Origin: Neoroseomonas rubea | GTDB lineage: Bacteria > Pseudomonadota > Alphaproteobacteria > Acetobacterales > Acetobacteraceae | DNA length: 35,025 nucleotides | Assembly (NCBI RefSeq): GCF_016106015.1 | Contig: NZ_JACADQ010000015.1 | Span: 1-35,025, forward strand | Direction of reading: 5' to 3' | Part shown: positions 24,335 to 31,501 of the stretch, one piece after another | Layout: each line of letters starts with the position of its first letter | How positions within the stretch are numbered: the first letter of the stretch is position 1 | Made by a program: the position numbers and the translations under genes | Notes under the pieces: generated by a model | What the model was told of the DNA's origin: nothing | The model's input: only the letters and a program-made list of their open reading frames with translations | Database searches by the model: none

Positions 24335-25648
24335 TCAGCGCGCGCGGGCGCGGCGCACGAAGCCGCTGACCTCGCCTTCCATCCGCCCCGCCTCGGTCTG
24401 CACGCCGGCGGCCGCATCGCGCACCGCGCGCGCCGTCGCGGCGGTGTTCTCGGAGGATTCTCGCAGCGCCTCGACGTTGCGCGAGGCGGTCGTGGCACCC
24501 TCGGCCGCGCGATGGACGCTGCGCGCGATCTCCTGCGTCGCCGCCGCCTGTTCCTCGACCGCCGCGGCGATCGCGGCCGCGACCTCGTCGGTCTCCTCGA
24601 CCGTGGCGCGGATGGAGCGGATCGCCGCCACCGCCTCTCCCGTCGCGGTGCGCATCGCCGTGATCTGCTCGCCGATCGTGCCGGTCGCACTCGCGGTCTG
24701 GGTGGCGAGGGCCTTCACCTCGCTCGCAACCACCGCGAAGCCCTTGCCGGCTTCCCCCGCGCGCGCCGCCTCGATGGTGGCGTTGAGCGCGAGCAGGTTG
24801 GTCTGCTCGGCGATGGCGCCGATCATGCGCACCACCTCGCCGATGCGGTTCGCCGCGTCCGACAGGCCCTGGATGGTCGGGTCGGTGTTCTGCGCGTCCT
24901 GCGCGGCGCGGCGCGCGATCGCGGATGCGCTGGTCACCTGGCGCGTGATCTCGGCGACGGAGACGGACAGTTCCTCCGCCGCCGCGGCGACGGCCTGTGC
25001 CTCGTTCGACGTGGCGCCGATCGCCGTGCCGGCCTCCTTGGCCGCCGCGATCGCCTCCTCGGCGCGGGCGAGAAGCGTGTCGGCCTGCACGCGCATGCCG
25101 TCGGCCTCCTGCGTCACGCGCCCGACGGACGAGCCCATCTCACTCTCGAAGGTGGCGGCGAAGCCATGAAACTCGTGCGCCTGCCGCTCCATCGTCGCGA
25201 TGCCGGCGTTGATGTCGCGCGCGGCCGCGCCGAAGGCGCCGGGCAGGCCACGCAGCAGCACCTTGCGGTGGTGTCGTCCCTCGGCGGCCGCGCGCATCGC
25301 GCCACCCGCCTCCCGCACGAAGGCGTCCGTCACGTCGAGCATGGCGTTGACGCCGCGCTGCAGTTCGCCCGCCATGCCGCTGCGCGGTGCGCCCAGCACA
25401 CGCGCCTCCATGTCGCCATGCCGCACCCGCTGGCAGGCCTCGGCGACGGCCTGTATCAGCGCGGCGCTGCGTTGGTCGCGGATGCGCAGCACGACCCAGG
25501 CGACAATGCCAAGCGCGGCGGACAGCACCGCGACCGGTACGCCCGCCTCCAGCACCGCGGCGGCGGCGCCGCCAAGAAGGCCCACGATCACCGCGGCGCT
25601 GAGCGCCGGCTGCACCAGCCGGTCAGAGAGCGAAGGCGAAGCGGTCAT
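24335..25648 (-). CDS. Methyl-accepting chemotaxis protein without periplasmic sensor (Aer-like signalling half)
   Basis: A 437-residue chemotaxis transducer. Two close hydrophobic segments (about 15-35 and 38-55) form a short membrane hairpin with almost no periplasmic loop. A linker follows, then a long coiled-coil signalling domain. The hairpin tip is recognisable as [20 protein letters not shown] with [16 protein letters not shown] next to it, the part that contacts CheA and CheW. No C-terminal receptor-docking pentapeptide is visible. Input must therefore come from the membrane or cytoplasm, most simply from the PAS protein encoded just upstream, with which it overlaps by 26 nt. ATG 25648 has GGAGATGAGCT before it. 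Confidence 0.92.
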
Positions 25649-26147
25649 AGCTCATCTCCTTTTCGGCGAGCATGGCGGCGAGCGCGGCCGCGCCCATCTG
25701 CTGGCCGCGCTTGCGGTCCTCCTCCCGCTGCTCGACGGCGAGCAGGTCGCGATAGAGCGCGGAGATGCTAGCCACCTGGCGCGGTTCGGGCTTGCGGCGG
25801 TTGGAATGGAAGCCCACCACCGCGCCGTCCGGCCCGAAGCTCGGCGTCACATGCGCGAAGACCCAGTAGTGGTCGCCGTTGGTCGCGAGGTTCAGCACAT
25901 AGCCAAAGAACTCGCCGCCGGACTGTATCGTTTTCCACATCAGTTCGAAGACGCAGCGCGGCATGGCCGGGTGGCGCACCAGGCTGTGCGGCGCGCCGAT
26001 CGCATCCGTCCAGGTCAGGACGGAGACGCGCAGGAACACCTCGTTCGCATAGGTGATCCGTCCGCGTATGTCGGTCTTGGTGACGATGATCTCGTCCTCA
26101 CCGAGCGGGCTTTCCCGACCGGTCGGCGTCGGTCTCGTGGCAGCCAT
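25623..26147 (-). CDS. Aer-type PAS domain protein
   Basis: A 174-residue cytoplasmic protein. One PAS domain (about 15-125) closely follows the redox sensor Aer: [17 protein letters not shown], then a LVRHPAMP segment and [14 protein letters not shown], corresponding to Aer regions that hold FAD. The Aer HPDMP motif reads HPAMP. A helical tail from about 125 would connect to a partner. Aer normally fuses this domain to the transducer; here the two are separate, overlapping genes. The PAS gene has its own ribosome site (GGAGTG). FAD binding is inferred from family similarity. Confidence 0.9.
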
Positions 26148-26254: not shown

Positions 26255-29200
26255 CTACGAGGCCGCCGGCTTGAGGCTGCCGAGCAGCGCCTGCTCCTCG
26301 TCCGGCACCAGCACGTGGAAGGCCGCGCCGCCGCCCGGCGCCTCCGGCGCCGCCCAGATCGACCCGCCATGCGCTTCCACGATCGCGCGGCACATGGCGA
26401 GCCCGATGCCCATGCCGTCCGGCTTGCTCGAGACGACCGGCTCGAACAGCCGCCGGCGCACCTCGGGCGGGATGCCCGGACCGCAATCGCGCACGACGAT
26501 CTCGACACCCTCGCCGGTCCAGCCGCGGCATGCCTCGATCGAAATTTGCGGCCGGCAGCCGGGCGGCGCGGCCTCGACCGCATTGGCCAGGAGGTTCGCG
26601 ATGACCTGGCGCAGCTGCACCGCATCCCCGAAGATCTGCAGGCCCGGCGGCGCGACTGAGATCGCGATCTCCGCCTCGCGGCGCTGCAATGCCTCGGCGC
26701 GCACCTCCTCGAACAGGTCGGCGACGCGCAGCGCCGTCACCTCGCGGTCCGCGCGGCCGATGAAGTCGCGCAGGCGCTTGACGATCCCGCTGGCGCGCAG
26801 CGCCTGGGCGGATGCCTTCTCGAGCAGCGCGGCGAGGCGTGCCCGTTCCTCCTCCGCCATCACCGCGCGGCCGGCGAGCATCGCTGCGGCGCCGGTGTAG
26901 TTCATCATGGCGCCCAGCGGCTGGTTGAGCTCATGCGCCAGCCCGGCCGCCATCGCCCCCATCGCGCCGAGGCGGGATGCGCGCATCGCCTCGGCTTCCA
27001 GCCTGCGCAGCCGCGCCTCGGCCTCGCGCATCGCGGTCACGTCGCGCAGCACGGCAAGGTGCCCCGTGCCGCCACCTGCCAGCGGGAAGGGCACGCCGCT
27101 CGCATCGACGCGGTGGCGCTCGCCGTCGCGGCCCGCCAGGTCGACCTCCCATTGCACCGTTTCGCCCGCGCAGACGCGCGCATGCGCCGCCTGCCAGGCC
27201 GCGCGGTCCTCCGGGGCCAGCAGCTCGAGCAGGCGCGGCGCGTCGCCGAGCAAGGCGGCGGCGGCCGCGTTGGCCGCGCCGATCGCGCCGTCGGGCCCGA
27301 TCTTGGCAACGGCCATCGGCACCGCCTCCAGGATGGCGCGGATCCGGGCCTCACCTTCCGCCAGCGCCGTCTCCAGCGCCTTGCGCGCGGTGATGTCCTG
27401 AAGGGTGCCGAGCATGCGCAGTGGCTGCCCGTCGGGCTCCCGCTCCACCACCCGGCCGCGATCCAGGACCCAGACCCAGTGCCCGTCACGATGGCGCAGC
27501 CGGTGTTCGCTGACATAGGCGCTGGTGGCGCCCTGGAAATGGGCGTCGAGGTGCCGGCGGACCTCGGGCATGTCGTCTGGATGGACCCGGCTCTGCCAGA
27601 AGGAGACATCCTGCTCGACCTCATGCAGCGCATAGCCGAGCATGGCGACGAATGGTTCAGTGAACGATGCGCGCCCGCTGGGGATATGGCAGTCCCACAG
27701 CCCCTCTCCCGTCGCCTCCACCGTCAGGCGCAGGCGTTCCTCGCTCTCCCGTACCCGTTCCTCGAGCATGCGCCGCGCGGTCACGTCGATGTTCACGCCG
27801 AGGATGCGGACTGGCGCGCCATCGGGTCCGGGAATCGCGCGGCCGATCCCCTGCAGCCAGCGCAGGCTGCCGTCGCGCTGCGGGACCCGGAAGGTCACGT
27901 CGAAGGGGGCGAAGGCGCCGCGTTCGGCGTCGGGCTGCCATTTCGCCATGTCCGCGTCGGACGGATGCACGATCCGCCGCCACTGCTCGCGGGGGAATTC
28001 GAGCGGATGGTCGGGGGCGAGGCCGTAGAGCCGCGCCGTCTCGGGCGAGAAGCGCGTCACCCGCCGATCGAGGTCGATCTCCCAGATTCCGATGCCAGCC
28101 GCCTCGTGCGTCAGGCGCAGGCGCATGTCGCTCTCGGCCAGCGCTGCCTCGGCGCGTCGGCGCTCGGTCACGTCGCGGATGATGCCGGTCAGGTGCATCA
28201 CGCCATCAACGACGAACGAGCCGACCGAGAGCTCGATGGGGAAGCGCGACCCGTCGCGCCGCTGCGCCATCAGCTCGCGGTCCTGCAGGCCGAGCACGCG
28301 TGGCGGCGCGCCGGTCCGGAGCGTGGCGACGTAGTGGGCGCCGCGCCGCGCATGCTCGGGCGGCAACAGCATCCCGAGGTCGCGCCCCACCATCTCGGCG
28401 AGCGAGGCATACCCGAACATGTGCAGCGTCGCGGCATTGGCGGTCACGATGCGGCCCAGCGCATCGGCGATGACGATGCCGTCCGCCGCCGTCTCCACCA
28501 CCGAGCGGTAGCGCTGCTCGCTGTCGGCGAGCGCCTTTTCGGCCGCCTTGCGGGCCGAGACGTTGATGATGACGCCGATGGCGGTGAGCGGCGTGCCGTC
28601 CTGCGCGTACTCGTAGTCCGCGCGCGCCTCCATGTGGCGGATCGCGCCGGTTTCCGGGTCGCGCAGCCGGTAGTCGACCGTGATGCCCGGCGCGCGGCGC
28701 GCAAACGCAATGGCGATGTCGGCCTCGATCCTCGCGCGGTCCTCGGGGACCATGTGCGCGAGCCAGTCTTCCATCCGAAGGGGATTGCCGGGCGGCAGGC
28801 TCCCATGCAGCGCCCGCGCCTCGGCCGAGACCTCGACCGTGCCCGCGACGATGTCGCGCCGGAAGGTTCCGATGCCCCCGGCGGCCATGGCAAGGCGAAG
28901 CATCTCCGCCCGCTCGCGCAGTTCGGCTTCCCGTGCGGAAAGCGCGACATTGGCGTCGAACTCCGCGGTGCGGTCCAGCACCGAGACGAGGATGGCGTCG
29001 CGATCCTGGAAGATCACGGGACAGGCGTTGATCTCGACGAGCCGCTCGCGGCCATGGGCATCGCGATGCACCCATGGGCCGGTCGTCGTATCGTGCCGCT
29101 TCTGCTCGGCCCGCCAGCGATCGAGCCGCGCGGCTTCCGCGGGCGAGCGGATGTCGCGGATCGTCATGCGCAGGAAATCGTCGCGGGACCAGCCATAGGT

Positions 29201-29329
29201 CGCGACAGCGGCATCGTTCACGTCGAGGAACCGCAGCGTCCCCTGCTCGAAGATCCACATCGGGACGGGATTCGACCAGAAGGGCGGCGGCCCTGACAGC
29301 CGGATCGGCGGGGGGACGGGCGGGCTCAC
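26255..29329 (-). CDS. Multi-PAS sensor histidine kinase, FixL-like
   Basis: A 1024-residue soluble kinase without membrane segments. I count six PAS domains at roughly 14-125, 143-262, 274-392, 402-522, 532-652 and 662-768, most ending in a PAC-type DVT motif. The dimerisation domain has phospho-acceptor H799 (LAHELNQPLGA), and the ATPase domain has N-box N912/N916, DCGPG (948-952) and GMGIGLA, as in the FixL/DctB group. PAS3 resembles the FixL heme domain but has Gly 330 where the heme-ligand His sits in Bradyrhizobium FixL. The start is GTG 29329 with only a weak upstream ribosome site; ATG at residue 24 is an alternative but would cut into PAS1. It is divergent from the degenerate regulator and near a FixJ-like gene, its likely partner. 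Confidence 0.92.
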   Translation of the reverse strand: MSPPVPPPIRLSGPPPFWSNPVPMWIFEQGTLRFLDVNDAAVATYGWSRDDFLRMTIRDIRSPAEAARLDRWRAEQKRHDTTTGPWVHRDAHGRERLVEINACPVIFQDRDAILVSVLDRTAEFDANVALSAREAELRERAEMLRLAMAAGGIGTFRRDIVAGTVEVSAEARALHGSLPPGNPLRMEDWLAHMVPEDRARIEADIAIAFARRAPGITVDYRLRDPETGAIRHMEARADYEYAQDGTPLTAIGVIINVSARKAAEKALADSEQRYRSVVETAADGIVIADALGRIVTANAATLHMFGYASLAEMVGRDLGMLLPPEHARRGAHYVATLRTGAPPRVLGLQDRELMAQRRDGSRFPIELSVGSFVVDGVMHLTGIIRDVTERRRAEAALAESDMRLRLTHEAAGIGIWEIDLDRRVTRFSPETARLYGLAPDHPLEFPREQWRRIVHPSDADMAKWQPDAERGAFAPFDVTFRVPQRDGSLRWLQGIGRAIPGPDGAPVRILGVNIDVTARRMLEERVRESEERLRLTVEATGEGLWDCHIPSGRASFTEPFVAMLGYALHEVEQDVSFWQSRVHPDDMPEVRRHLDAHFQGATSAYVSEHRLRHRDGHWVWVLDRGRVVEREPDGQPLRMLGTLQDITARKALETALAEGEARIRAILEAVPMAVAKIGPDGAIGAANAAAAALLGDAPRLLELLAPEDRAAWQAAHARVCAGETVQWEVDLAGRDGERHRVDASGVPFPLAGGGTGHLAVLRDVTAMREAEARLRRLEAEAMRASRLGAMGAMAAGLAHELNQPLGAMMNYTGAAAMLAGRAVMAEEERARLAALLEKASAQALRASGIVKRLRDFIGRADREVTALRVADLFEEVRAEALQRREAEIAISVAPPGLQIFGDAVQLRQVIANLLANAVEAAPPGCRPQISIEACRGWTGEGVEIVVRDCGPGIPPEVRRRLFEPVVSSKPDGMGIGLAMCRAIVEAHGGSIWAAPEAPGGGAAFHVLVPDEEQALLGSLKPAAS

Positions 29330-29371
29330 GTGGGTGCGGGGATTCCTGCGATCAGGGTGGCTGGCGACGCA

Positions 29372-29383
29372 GATGCGCGCATC
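29372..29383. promoter_or_regulatory. 12-bp palindrome between kinase and degenerate regulator genes
   Basis: GATGCGCGCATC is a perfect palindrome in the 162-base divergent gap (29330-29491), a position where an operator could act on both genes. Palindromes of this length are expected by chance several times in a window this size, so only the location makes it notable. An AATTTTAC stretch just downstream (29390-29396) is the most AT-rich part of the gap and could contain a -10 element. Confidence 0.3.
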
Positions 29384-29491
29384 CCCGCAATTTTACGGAG
29401 GTGAAACGCGCTGGCCTTCGGCACCAAATAGCATGCCCAGGCTGTGCGATCACGAGAAGCGATGTCCGTCGAGGTTGAAGGACTCTTTTGC

Positions 29492-30094
29492 ATGCGCGCG
29501 GCGCCCCTTGCGGAACCGTTCGTCGCTGTGCAGGTGCCTGACCCTGCCTGGCAGGATTCGCTGCTGCTGCTGCTGCGCGCCGCGGGACTGCCCTGTCGCG
29601 GCTACGCCACGCCGGACGACCTGCTGCTGCCGCCCTTCGCGACGGCGCCGCTTCGTGTCGTCCTGACGGGTGGCGAGCGGGGGCGCCTGCCTCATGCCGC
29701 GGCGCCCGTCGCGGCGCTGCGCGCCGGCGGCGTGGCGGCGCCGATCCTCATGCTGGTGCCAGGCCCGGTGGAACCCGCGCTCGCCTGCCGCCTGCTGACG
29801 ATGGGCCGGACCGAAGTGCTCGAGAACCTCTCGGCGGCGCCGGCCGTGCTCGCCGCGCTGCGCCTGCTCGCGGCTGGCGGCGCTCGGCCGGTGGACGCGG
29901 CGCTTTCCCCGCTTGCCCGCCGCGCGATCGGGATGATGCTGGCCGGGCGCAGCCGGCGCACCATTGCCGCCGCGCTGGCCATGCGCCTCGTGGATTTCGA
30001 TGCGCTGGTGGCCGACACCGTCGCGGCGCGGGCGGTGCCGGGGCTGGTCGCGCTGCTGCGGGCGGCACGCCAGGACGGACTTGTGCCCATCTGA
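29492..30094 (+). CDS. Degenerate FixJ-like response regulator (pseudo-receiver plus degenerate HTH)
   Basis: A 200-residue protein that aligns without large gaps to the FixJ-like regulator at 30890-31501. The receiver half keeps the pattern of strands (PFVAVQVPDPAWQDSLLLLL; APILMLVPG) but lacks the phosphorylation residues. The acidic pair of FixJ (D17, D18) is V15, P16; the acceptor Asp is T59; the conserved Thr is V89; and the conserved Lys is N112 (VLENLS). The C-terminal part (about 138-195) follows the LuxR-type HTH in length and start (LSPLARRAIGMMLAGRSRRTI), but the recognition helix has lost most typical residues. It is an intact gene rather than a broken one. ATG 29492 sits nine bases after AAGGA and gives FixJ-like length; ATG 29462 is an alternative. 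Confidence 0.75.
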   Translation: MRAAPLAEPFVAVQVPDPAWQDSLLLLLRAAGLPCRGYATPDDLLLPPFATAPLRVVLTGGERGRLPHAAAPVAALRAGGVAAPILMLVPGPVEPALACRLLTMGRTEVLENLSAAPAVLAALRLLAAGGARPVDAALSPLARRAIGMMLAGRSRRTIAAALAMRLVDFDALVADTVAARAVPGLVALLRAARQDGLVPI

Positions 30095-30105
30095 CTCCGG
30101 CCGGG

Positions 30106-30134
30106 ATCGCCAGGGCGTCGGTCGCCCTGGCGAT
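30106..30134. terminator. Bidirectional hairpin between convergent pseudo-receiver genes
   Basis: A perfect 12-bp stem, ATCGCCAGGGCG (30106-30117) with CGCCCTGGCGAT (30123-30134), and a TCGGT loop. It begins 11 bases after the stop of the degenerate FixJ-like gene and ends six bases before the stop of the convergent gene. T-content after the stem is low (TGTTCC), but length and position make it a good shared terminator. Confidence 0.7.
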
Positions 30135-30140
30135 TGTTCC

Positions 30141-30644
30141 TCAGCCGGCGGGCGGCGGGGCGCCAAGGACGGCGGCGGGTTCCTTGTCGATCCGGCTGTG
30201 GCGCGCCACGCGGCAGGCGGCGCGCACGACCAGCGTCGCCAACTCGCCGGCGCCGCGCCCCGGTGCGTCGACCGCCCGGTCGAGATCCACCAGCACGCCC
30301 TGGCCCCCGGGGGTCGCTGCGATCAGCGGCACCCAGGGCCGCTCATCCCGCAACAGGCTCACGAGGTCGCCGGCGCCGCGGAACTCGGCGAGGCTCGCGC
30401 AGACCACGAGGTCGATCCGCGCCGTCAACGCCGCCGCGCCGCGGCGGGACGCCGCAAGGTGGCACACGTCGAGGCCGAGCAGGCGCAGTGTGACCGAAAG
30501 CCTGTCCTGGTCCTCGGGGCGCTCGGCGATCAACAGCGCACGCTTGCCGAGCAGCACGCACCGGGCGCCCTCCTGGCCGCAGGGCAGGGTGCAGGCCGAG
30601 GTCACGTCGGGGTCCTCGTCGCCGAGTGCGGTTCCCCGCGCCAT
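30141..30644 (-). CDS. Receiver-like hypothetical protein with N-terminal cysteines
   Basis: A 167-residue protein of no firmly recognised family. Residues from about 34 to 150 have the alternating strand-helix pattern of a receiver: KRALLIAERPEDQDRLSVTL, then a buried strand IDLVVCASLAEF, then VPLIAATPG. At the strand where a receiver carries its phospho-acceptor Asp, the text reads VVCASL, so phosphorylation is unlikely. Before this lies a short segment with C18, C22 and C29 (C-x3-C-x6-C), with C61 further on, which could bind metal or sense redox; that is inference. It is divergent from the FixJ-like gene. ATG 30644 is the last good start; upstream frame extension is low-complexity. Confidence 0.62.
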   Translation of the reverse strand: MARGTALGDEDPDVTSACTLPCGQEGARCVLLGKRALLIAERPEDQDRLSVTLRLLGLDVCHLAASRRGAAALTARIDLVVCASLAEFRGAGDLVSLLRDERPWVPLIAATPGGQGVLVDLDRAVDAPGRGAGELATLVVRAACRVARHSRIDKEPAAVLGAPPPAG

Positions 30645-30889
30645 GCGTCGCGCATATCGCGGCCGGCGCGGCGGCTGTTGGGGTGGCCTCGCATTTGTGT
30701 TACCTCGTTCCGGTCCGGGGTCGCGCCTGAGAGCCCACGGGGAGGGGCCGACCCTGATCACCGTCGCATAATCTAAAAACGCGCGCGCGTTCGACATTTT
30801 TCGACTGTGGGAACTACGGAGGCCGGGGCGTTGCACGTCATCAACCATCTTTCCTTCGCGCATCCGTGTTCGGGCGCGGGGGCCGCGCC
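30645..30889. promoter_or_regulatory. Divergent control region of pseudo-receiver and FixJ-like genes, with FixK-type box
   Basis: A 245-base gap, unusually AT-rich for the window around 30767-30800. CATAAT (30767-30772) is a candidate -10 toward the FixJ-like gene, although no good -35 precedes it. TTCGAC occurs twice close together (30790-30806). TTGCACGTCATCAA at 30831-30844 fits the FNR/FixK2 consensus TTG(A/C)-N6-(T/G)CAA exactly and lies 46 bases before the start codon. FixK sites at that distance could activate or repress. All are motif matches only. Confidence 0.45.
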
Positions 30890-31501
30890 ATGACGCGCGC
30901 CGGCCCGGCGCCGGGCCCTGCCAGGCTGCTCGTCGTAGATGACGACGAAGCCGTCCGCGAATCCCTCGTCGCACTGCTCGAGGCCGGCGGCCACGAGGCC
31001 GCGGCCCGCACCTCCTCGGCCGATCTGCGCGCGCGCGGCATACCGCCCGGCACCGCCTGCCTGCTGCTCGACGTCCGGCTGGGCGAAGGCGACGATGGCA
31101 TCGACCTGATGGTGGAACTGAAGCGCAACGGCCTCGCCGCGCCCGTCGTGGTGATCACGGGCCATGGCGACGTGCCGCTCGCAGTGCGCGCGATGCGCCT
31201 CGGCGCCTTCCACTTCATCGAAAAGCCCTTCACGGCGGAAACCCTGCTCGACGCGGTCACCGAGGCGCTGTCGGCGGCCGCGCCTGCCGCCGATGCCGCC
31301 GCGCGCATGGCGCGGCTGACGGCGCGCGAGCGCGAGGTTGTCGACGGGCTCGTCGCCGGAAAGCAGAACAAGGTCGTCGCCGCCGAACTCGGCATCAGCG
31401 TGCGCACCGTCGAGGCGTACCGCGCGACTGTCATGTCGAAGCTCGGCTTGCGTTCCTTCGCGGAACTCGTCCGCATCGCCCTGGCTGCCGGCGGCCCGTA
31501 G
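30890..31501 (+). CDS. FixJ-like LuxR-type response regulator
   Basis: A 203-residue two-domain transcription regulator. The receiver has the full phosphorylation set: D17, D18 in VVDDDEAVRESL, acceptor D61 in LLLDVRLG, T90 in VVITGHGD, and K112 in IEKPF. The HTH (about 143-200) begins LTAREREVVDGLVAGKQNK and includes ISVRTVEAYRATVMSKL. TGHGDVPLAVRAM is typical of the FixJ/TtrR group. It is the probable target of the multi-PAS kinase at 26255-29329. ATG 30890 is used; an in-frame GTG at 30866 is possible, and neither has a clear ribosome site. Confidence 0.93.
   Translation: MTRAGPAPGPARLLVVDDDEAVRESLVALLEAGGHEAAARTSSADLRARGIPPGTACLLLDVRLGEGDDGIDLMVELKRNGLAAPVVVITGHGDVPLAVRAMRLGAFHFIEKPFTAETLLDAVTEALSAAAPAADAAARMARLTAREREVVDGLVAGKQNKVVAAELGISVRTVEAYRATVMSKLGLRSFAELVRIALAAGGP

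Follow-up and report, generated by a model that had tools for sequence, protein, structure and literature searches.

What might two proteins that resemble response-regulator receivers, but that have lost residues used for phosphorylation, be doing between the genes of a FixL-type histidine kinase and a FixJ-type response regulator? The question is raised by a four-gene island of Neoroseomonas rubea, which lies in a 35,025-nucleotide stretch of contig NZ_JACADQ010000015.1 (hereafter the window, meaning that whole stretch): a kinase gene on the minus strand, a gene that we call PR1 on the plus strand, a second that we call PR2 on the minus strand, and a gene for a FixJ-like regulator on the plus strand. 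Kinase and PR1 are divergently transcribed, as are PR2 and the FixJ-like gene, and PR1 and PR2 converge over a 12-bp inverted repeat. A sequence-only reading of the window had given the same gene order and strands, and had proposed that the two intervening proteins tune the kinase or the FixJ-like protein. We arrive at a more specific form of that proposal, to which we assign a probability of roughly 0.43: a FixL/FixJ-type system, probably without haem-based oxygen sensing, would have gained PR1 and PR2 as negative modulators, PR1 serving as a decoy and PR2 acting in the manner of FixT. The observations that carry this reading are that both intervening genes are real and under selection, that each is paired with one of the canonical genes, that their products have lost conserved receiver residues, and that the kinase has no histidine at the haem-ligand position.

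Identity of the four proteins

The kinase has six PAS stretches (NCBIfam TIGR00229), and its HisKA (with H799) and HATPase_c domains score above the Pfam cut-offs; the PDB entries that match it best are chimeras containing the FixL kinase core (E 9e-49), so the six-PAS FixL-like kinase that the sequence-only reading described is borne out in its PAS count and its core. Against the NCBIfam FixL model it scores 418.6 bits, below the cut-off of 850 bits. In FixL a histidine of the PAS domain is the haem ligand. At the position aligned to it in the third PAS domain, the one closest to the haem PAS of FixL, the kinase has Gly, and its ortholog in Neoroseomonas nitratireducens has Gln (PDB alignment), a difference that the sequence-only reading had missed. 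Because neither species has a histidine there, the kinase is unlikely to be a FixL-type oxygen sensor. The window kinase has another histidine two residues further on, which is absent from the ortholog, and the remaining PAS domains could bind other ligands. The FixJ-like protein is canonical, as had been claimed: its Response_reg and GerE domains score above the Pfam cut-offs and its five receiver residues (DD/D/T/K) are all kept, while its 197.6 bits against the NCBIfam FixJ model are below the cut-off of 255 bits.

PR1 matches no Pfam or NCBIfam family above cut-off and has no significant PDB sequence match (in PDB searches with the PR1 and PR2 profiles, which returned unrelated repeats or enzymes, the best E values were 0.94 for PR1 and 0.004 for PR2). 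Its kinship emerges from comparison with a FixJ profile built from 28 sequences, the window FixJ included: PR1 scores 18.8 bits and its ortholog 13.4 bits, and in neither case did any of 2000 shuffles reach the score. By hhalign, PR1 and FixJ are 28% identical across 185 aligned columns (probability 34; E 4.4e-4, valid for a single comparison). The predicted structure of PR1 is poor (pLDDT 43.7, pTM 0.28), and the top Foldseek match of the model is full-length B. japonicum FixJ (E 5.3e-3) at a low TM-score of 0.24. We take PR1 for a whole, two-domain FixJ-family protein in degenerate form, and thus for more than the receiver-like product originally described; a receiver fold, which the sequence-only reading had wished to see predicted, rests for PR1 on profiles. 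Lys is missing from PR1 altogether, and Asp from its residues 60-150; the ortholog has Lys at 5 and 211 only, and Asp is again absent from that interval. Taking as a pseudo-receiver any receiver that lacks any of the five receiver residues, PR1 belongs to this class through its receiver homology (0 of 2000 shuffles) together with the residues that it has lost.

The resemblance of PR1 to FixJ proteins is unevenly spread. When the comparison is divided into segments (with limits set by us and not derived from a structure), helix alpha1 contributes +21.4 bits over 15 columns and beta2-alpha2 +24.5 bits over 16 columns, and beta3-alpha3 and beta4 are mildly FixJ-like, whereas beta1, alpha4, beta5, alpha5 and the three segments of the helix-turn-helix (HTH) domain fall below zero. 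The stretch corresponding to the recognition helix carries a net charge of -1 (-2 in the ortholog), versus +2 and +3 in two FixJs. A recent duplication of the neighboring FixJ-like gene was considered as the origin of PR1 and rejected, since the PR1 profile is closer to the FixJs of other genera: its best match (locus L091) scores 42.5 bits and the window FixJ 14.8 bits, at rank 27 of 71 scored open reading frames (ORFs), with the N. nitratireducens FixJ at rank 22.

PR2 likewise has no Pfam or NCBIfam family above cut-off, and its identity as a receiver is of moderate strength. The best model (mean pLDDT 66, pTM 0.65) shows a receiver topology without alpha4, and the other four models are poor (35-44). 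Among the 50 best PDB matches of the PR2 model, 34 are response-regulator or receiver chains, none with E below 0.001; these 34 include nine chains of 6oec, a fusion to 3H5I, which we take to be a response-regulator domain. The best structural match is a HemD-like fold (E 1.4e-3), and the first receivers come at rank 2 (2.1e-3) and rank 4 (AmiR, 4.8e-3). By hhalign, residues 33-112 align with FixLJ-linked single-domain receivers (E 1.5e-4, probability 51), and the score against the single-domain-receiver profile is borderline, being reached by 35 of 2000 shuffles for PR2 and 47 of 2000 for its ortholog. Pfam matches below cut-off are to FleQ (PF06490, E 0.042) for PR2 and to GlnR_1st (PF21695, E 4e-4) for the ortholog; a 2025 review counts these families as two of six minor sources of pseudo-receivers (PMC12632262).

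In the hhalign alignment the acidic pair of PR2 is replaced by A40/E41 (A/A in the ortholog) and the phosphorylated Asp by A83 (Gly in the ortholog), while the conserved Thr is kept as T111; the only Lys residues, K34 and K154, both lie outside the beta5 region. An alternative placement of the phosphorylated Asp at D78, obtained with MAFFT --add behind a 4-residue gap, was rejected in that D78 precedes strand beta3 of the model (79-82). The earlier statement that both proteins lack the phosphorylation residues therefore holds for the Asp and the Lys of each and for the acidic pair of PR2, and fails for the Thr of PR2. PR2 is also rich in cysteine, with six in 167 residues versus 0.67% in a control of 12 further window genes (binomial 0.001; the control is small and was chosen after inspection of the sequence), and five of these are conserved (18, 22, 29, 82 and 144). 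In being a short, single-domain protein of 167 amino acids that adjoins a FixL/FixJ-type pair, it is situated as FixT is.

Conservation and distribution of the island

All four genes are also present in N. nitratireducens PWR1, the sole other genome found with the same locus, and the amino-acid identities between the two species are 83% for the kinase, 81% for PR1, 64% for PR2 and 89% for the FixJ-like protein, with dN/dS of 0.29, 0.29, 0.55 and 0.14, respectively. For PR1 the bootstrap range of dN/dS is 0.19-0.45, there are no indels over 216 codons, and changes are distributed 25/24/67 over the three codon positions. For PR2 the bootstrap range is 0.36-0.83, and constraint is found in residues 76-152 (dN/dS 0.27). 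With dN/dS below 1 and frames open in both species, PR1 and PR2 are confirmed as real genes, and the sequence-only description of them as intact stands.

The island is rare. We find it in 2 of 35 genomes of the genus; PR2 is likewise in 2 of the 35, with an ortholog of the FixJ-like protein (88%) in the same two. At the scale of the family, the kinase is recovered at E 1e-100 in 2 of 397 genomes, PR1 gives two clear cases among 59 relatives and the same two among the 397, and PR2 gives the same two among the 397 plus four further matches at E 2.7e-4 to 9e-4. Among 200 genomes of the class, PR2 is matched by the window's own genome and by one chance match only. The latter, in another family (E 6e-5), was rejected: it lies antisense to a short basic ORF, which we take to encode ribosomal protein S21, so that E values near 6e-5 can arise by chance. 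Distant PR1 orthologs within the family were rejected as well, although at E 0.001 the search gave matches in 119 of the 397 genomes; of 12 such places that were fetched, 10 are FixJ or receiver proteins far closer to the window FixJ than to PR1, and the other two match none of the four window proteins. Residues 60-166 of the PR1 profile also match ORFs of about 1200 amino acids in many family genomes (e.g., at loci L058, L062 and L063), which we take for composition bias. A plasmid search by tblastn returned no match to PR1 or PR2; a scan of genome contigs with the single PR1 sequence returned none either, and one with the PR1 alignment returned N. nitratireducens only, with records near the window's genome possibly excluded.

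The flanks of the island differ in their distribution: the neighboring chemoreceptor (methyl-accepting chemotaxis protein, MCP) gene is found at E 1e-60 only in the two island genomes among the 35, while 4 of the 35 have the glycosyltransferase gene of the opposite flank (E 1e-60). As to the synteny check that the sequence-only reading had suggested, both PR1 and PR2 adjoin the sole orthologous kinase found, that of N. nitratireducens, and the searches of further genomes turned up an ortholog of neither gene; in most of those genomes an orthologous kinase is missing too.

Gene layout and FixLJ-type loci elsewhere in the family

The features of the island are collected in the table.

Table. Features of the N. 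rubea island, in window coordinates (strand "." where a feature has no orientation)
Feature	Position	Strand	Basis or remark
Histidine kinase, 1024 aa, FixL-type core	26255..29329	-	Pfam/NCBIfam, PDB relatives, 83% identical ortholog
Third PAS domain of kinase, closest to FixL haem PAS	28133..28519	-	PDB alignment
Common upstream region of kinase and PR1, conserved TACGGAGGTG block	29330..29443	.	Alignment to N. nitratireducens
PR1, 216 aa, taken for a degenerate FixJ paralog (dead receiver and decayed GerE)	29444..30094	+	GTG start
12-bp inverted repeat between convergent ends of PR1 and PR2	30106..30134	.	Read from sequence
PR2, 167 aa, Cys-rich probable pseudo-receiver	30141..30644	-	Profiles, predicted structure, cysteines
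PR2 cysteine group C18-x3-C22-x6-C29, directly before the receiver-like fold	30558..30593	-	
Common upstream region of PR2 and FixJ-like gene, conserved AACTACGGAG at 30812-30821	30645..30889	.	
FixJ-like response regulator, all five receiver residues and GerE	30890..31501	+	Pfam, NCBIfam, alignment

Some gene starts admit alternatives. PR1 could also begin at an ATG at 29462, and the FixJ-like gene, which probably starts at the ATG listed, has an alternative GTG at 30866. For PR2, the reading frame from 30974 is too long: its third-position GC becomes coding-like only from about the ATG at 30644. Between kinase and PR1, 103 of 131 aligned bases (29330-29460) are identical to N. nitratireducens. 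The inverted repeat is a possible two-way terminator for PR1 and PR2; three terminator-like sites were found around it versus 1.2 expected, with part of the repeat among them. The 7-mer TACGGAG occurs at 29394-29400 and 30815-30821, in both divergent intergenic regions and in both species, and could be a common operator, although it is not significant by itself and serves as a lead only. A FixJ operator, GTAGTTTCCC (PMC4999443), was rejected, with 10 matches in the window versus 8.25 expected, and AACTACGGAG resembles a FixJ site no more than chance would allow. A simple promoter scan found none. Beyond the kinase gene, in its direction of transcription, a gene with PAS alone (25623-26147, minus strand) overlaps by 26 bp an MCP-signaling gene (24335-25648, minus strand) that has no Pfam PAS match; from a presumed resemblance to Aer, the gene pair has the look of a split Aer-type receptor.

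How often FixLJ-type pairs are accompanied by further receivers was surveyed at the first 60 places outside the two species, ranked by similarity to the window FixJ-like protein across the 397 family genomes; these loci are the top of a longer list and not a random choice. All 60 have a FixL-type kinase match beside FixJ, and in 14 a receiver ORF with neither HTH nor kinase lies at most 1 kb from the pair (one of them, at L152, inside a longer stop-to-stop ORF). Eight of these 14 third receivers have substitutions at one or more of the five residues, at the Thr in seven and from Asp to Glu in the other one; three of the eight come from one genus. The count leaves out an apparently OmpR-type neighbor (L108) and receivers 2.4 kb (L115) and 1.8 kb (L155) away. 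At none of the 60 loci did we see two such receivers or a degenerate FixJ, with a receiver profile that would miss divergence of the PR1/PR2 kind.

Two side observations from the survey deserve record. The receiver at L115 (701-1210), which lies 2.4 kb from a FixLJ-type pair, is a pseudo-receiver that has lost every one of the five residues. In three species of one other genus, extra receivers (L114:1488-1979, L116:4227-4853 and L117:4237-4770) have a Cys cluster directly before beta1 and Ala in place of the conserved Thr, which makes them candidate metal or redox receivers.

Possible roles of PR1 and PR2

The idea of pseudo-receivers beside FixLJ already has direct precedents, and the island is an unusual version of them. 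The sequence-only reading knew of no described FixLJ system of such make-up, and had overlooked FixT: in the FixL-FixJ-FixT systems of Sinorhizobium meliloti and Caulobacter crescentus, a FixL-type kinase and a FixJ-type regulator are likewise joined by an unphosphorylated receiver-like protein, FixT, which inhibits FixL autophosphorylation (PMC7078487). Caulobacter FixT also has a cysteine group (C53, C56, C59 and C64), by which it binds an Fe-S cluster (PMC7078487); the five conserved cysteines of PR2 are arranged differently. PMC4999443 and PMC13327599 also make mention of FixJ sites and of a FixT homolog in Rhodopseudomonas palustris. Further afield, Osp of Rhodobacter sphaeroides is a receiver-like protein without the acidic pair that inhibits the kinase CckA without being phosphorylated, as we propose here, but it acts on a different kinase, keeps its Asp (D51) and is encoded away from its target (PMC9430884). 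CmrT of the Clostridioides difficile CmrRST system is a pseudo-receiver regulator encoded, as here, with a normal kinase/regulator pair (PMC12632262), but is of the OmpR family and, in one model, is possibly an output protein governed by its abundance. WhiI and BldM of Streptomyces are atypical regulators that form heterodimers, through which WhiI acts (PMC12632262); unlike in the island, BldM has no known partner kinase and WhiI works on DNA as a heterodimer. RitR of Streptococcus pneumoniae is, by the title of its structure 5u8m, a redox sensor derived from a response regulator, and 5u8m is the rank-28 structural match of PR2. RitR is presumably unlike PR2 in being a two-domain OmpR-type protein with no linked kinase. 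A literature search, covering few subscription papers, gave no FixLJ-type system with two pseudo-receivers among the matches listed.

It is these published precedents (FixT, Osp and pseudo-receivers at large), taken with the anatomy of the locus, that lead us to favor negative modulation. Helix alpha1 is a main kinase-docking surface of receivers. PR1 appears to have kept this face (alpha1 and beta2-alpha2) while losing its active site and the FixJ-like DNA-reading helix, and would most likely dock on the kinase as a decoy, either sequestering it or inhibiting its autophosphorylation. PR2 most likely would act on the kinase as FixT does, perhaps tuned by redox state. Each pseudo-receiver has its upstream region in common with one canonical partner, so that the abundance of inhibitor and of target may be coupled. 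Binding, inhibition and co-regulation by PR1 and PR2 are what we infer. Further points in favor of the reading as a whole are the purifying selection on PR1, as strong as on the kinase, the receiver-like model and profile matches of PR2, and the repeated occurrence in the family of a third receiver next to FixLJ-type pairs (14 of 60 loci). The earlier proposal of tuning accordingly survives in part, as the best of the readings considered.

Several points weigh against negative modulation as we describe it. The conservation, though genuine, is that of just two species. In PR2, residues 8-75 show no purifying selection (dN/dS 1.68 over 8-33 and 1.07 over 34-75, on few sites); 266 of 2000 shuffles reach its score against the FixJ profile (812 of 2000 for the ortholog); and its match to FixT, in a comparison that covered S. 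meliloti FixT only, is not significant (hhalign E 0.1), the two known FixTs sharing only 21.5% with each other (PMC7078487). In PR1, the HTH domain as a whole has a charge of +5 (+6 in the ortholog) versus +3 and +4 in FixJs, which is compatible with DNA binding. Its well-kept alpha1 would fit dimerization as well as docking, since alpha1-alpha5 is the dimer interface of the NarL/FixJ family (PMC12632262).

This last point bears most directly on the possibility that PR1 and PR2 target the FixJ-like protein and not the kinase, with PR1 heterodimerizing with it and changing its DNA binding or choice of targets. That PR1 is a full-length FixJ-family protein agrees with this, and both the WhiI/BldM heterodimers and a similar idea for CmrT are published (PMC12632262); but the other half of the interface, alpha5, is below zero in PR1, as are alpha4 and beta5, and the recognition helix has lost its former positive charge, so that we regard heterodimerization as unlikely. 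We would call it quite improbable that the two proteins are phosphorylation-independent outputs that the two-component system controls through their abundance, with PR1 binding DNA or another target: the class is described in the review, with CmrT as one possible case (PMC12632262), the divergent upstream regions would allow control by the FixJ-like protein, and the charge of the PR1 HTH domain is favorable, whereas the recognition-helix stretch is negative where FixJs are positive, PR1 has no Pfam GerE match and HTH segments that score below zero, and PR2 has no output domain recognized by Pfam or NCBIfam.

The residues lost from both proteins, the elevated dN/dS of PR2 and the restriction of the island to two species might instead be explained if PR1 and PR2 were functionless, decaying relics of former response regulators. 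We give this very little credence: PR1 evolves under the same dN/dS as the kinase and without indels, the C-terminal part of PR2 is constrained, and both frames are open in both species. An improbable, and more conservative, explanation is a plain FixT-type feedback inhibitor arrangement, with nothing beyond the S. meliloti and Caulobacter FixLJT systems. A residue-losing receiver-like protein does adjoin a FixL/FixJ-type pair here, and S. meliloti FixT, which like PR2 has no Pfam receiver match, has Ala-Ala at the acidic pair. The island departs from such an arrangement in its kinase without the haem histidine and in its two pseudo-receivers, one of them a whole FixJ paralog, and PR2 is not significantly matched by FixT.

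Negative modulation by PR1 and PR2 would speak to a matter of wider interest, in that the 2025 review (PMC12632262) discusses pseudo-receivers within two-component systems as an open question and calls the on-off switching of bacterial pseudo-receivers a mystery. The locus offers two pseudo-receivers, a kinase and a normal regulator in compact form, and so allows direct in vitro tests of binding and inhibition. Judging by the survey, a third, residue-losing receiver often accompanies FixLJ-type pairs in the family (8 of 60 loci), in a series that runs from normal towards dead. A bolder extension, which we consider distinctly unlikely, is that PR2 is an independently evolved Cys-cluster pseudo-receiver (Fe-S or thiol redox) that gates the haem-less kinase, with PR1 as a FixJ-shaped decoy that sets a threshold. 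If that were true, FixLJ-type systems would have gained a second sensor more than once by taking on redox-sensitive pseudo-receivers, and the Cys-cluster receivers of L114, L116 and L117 would be a further case of such recruitment.

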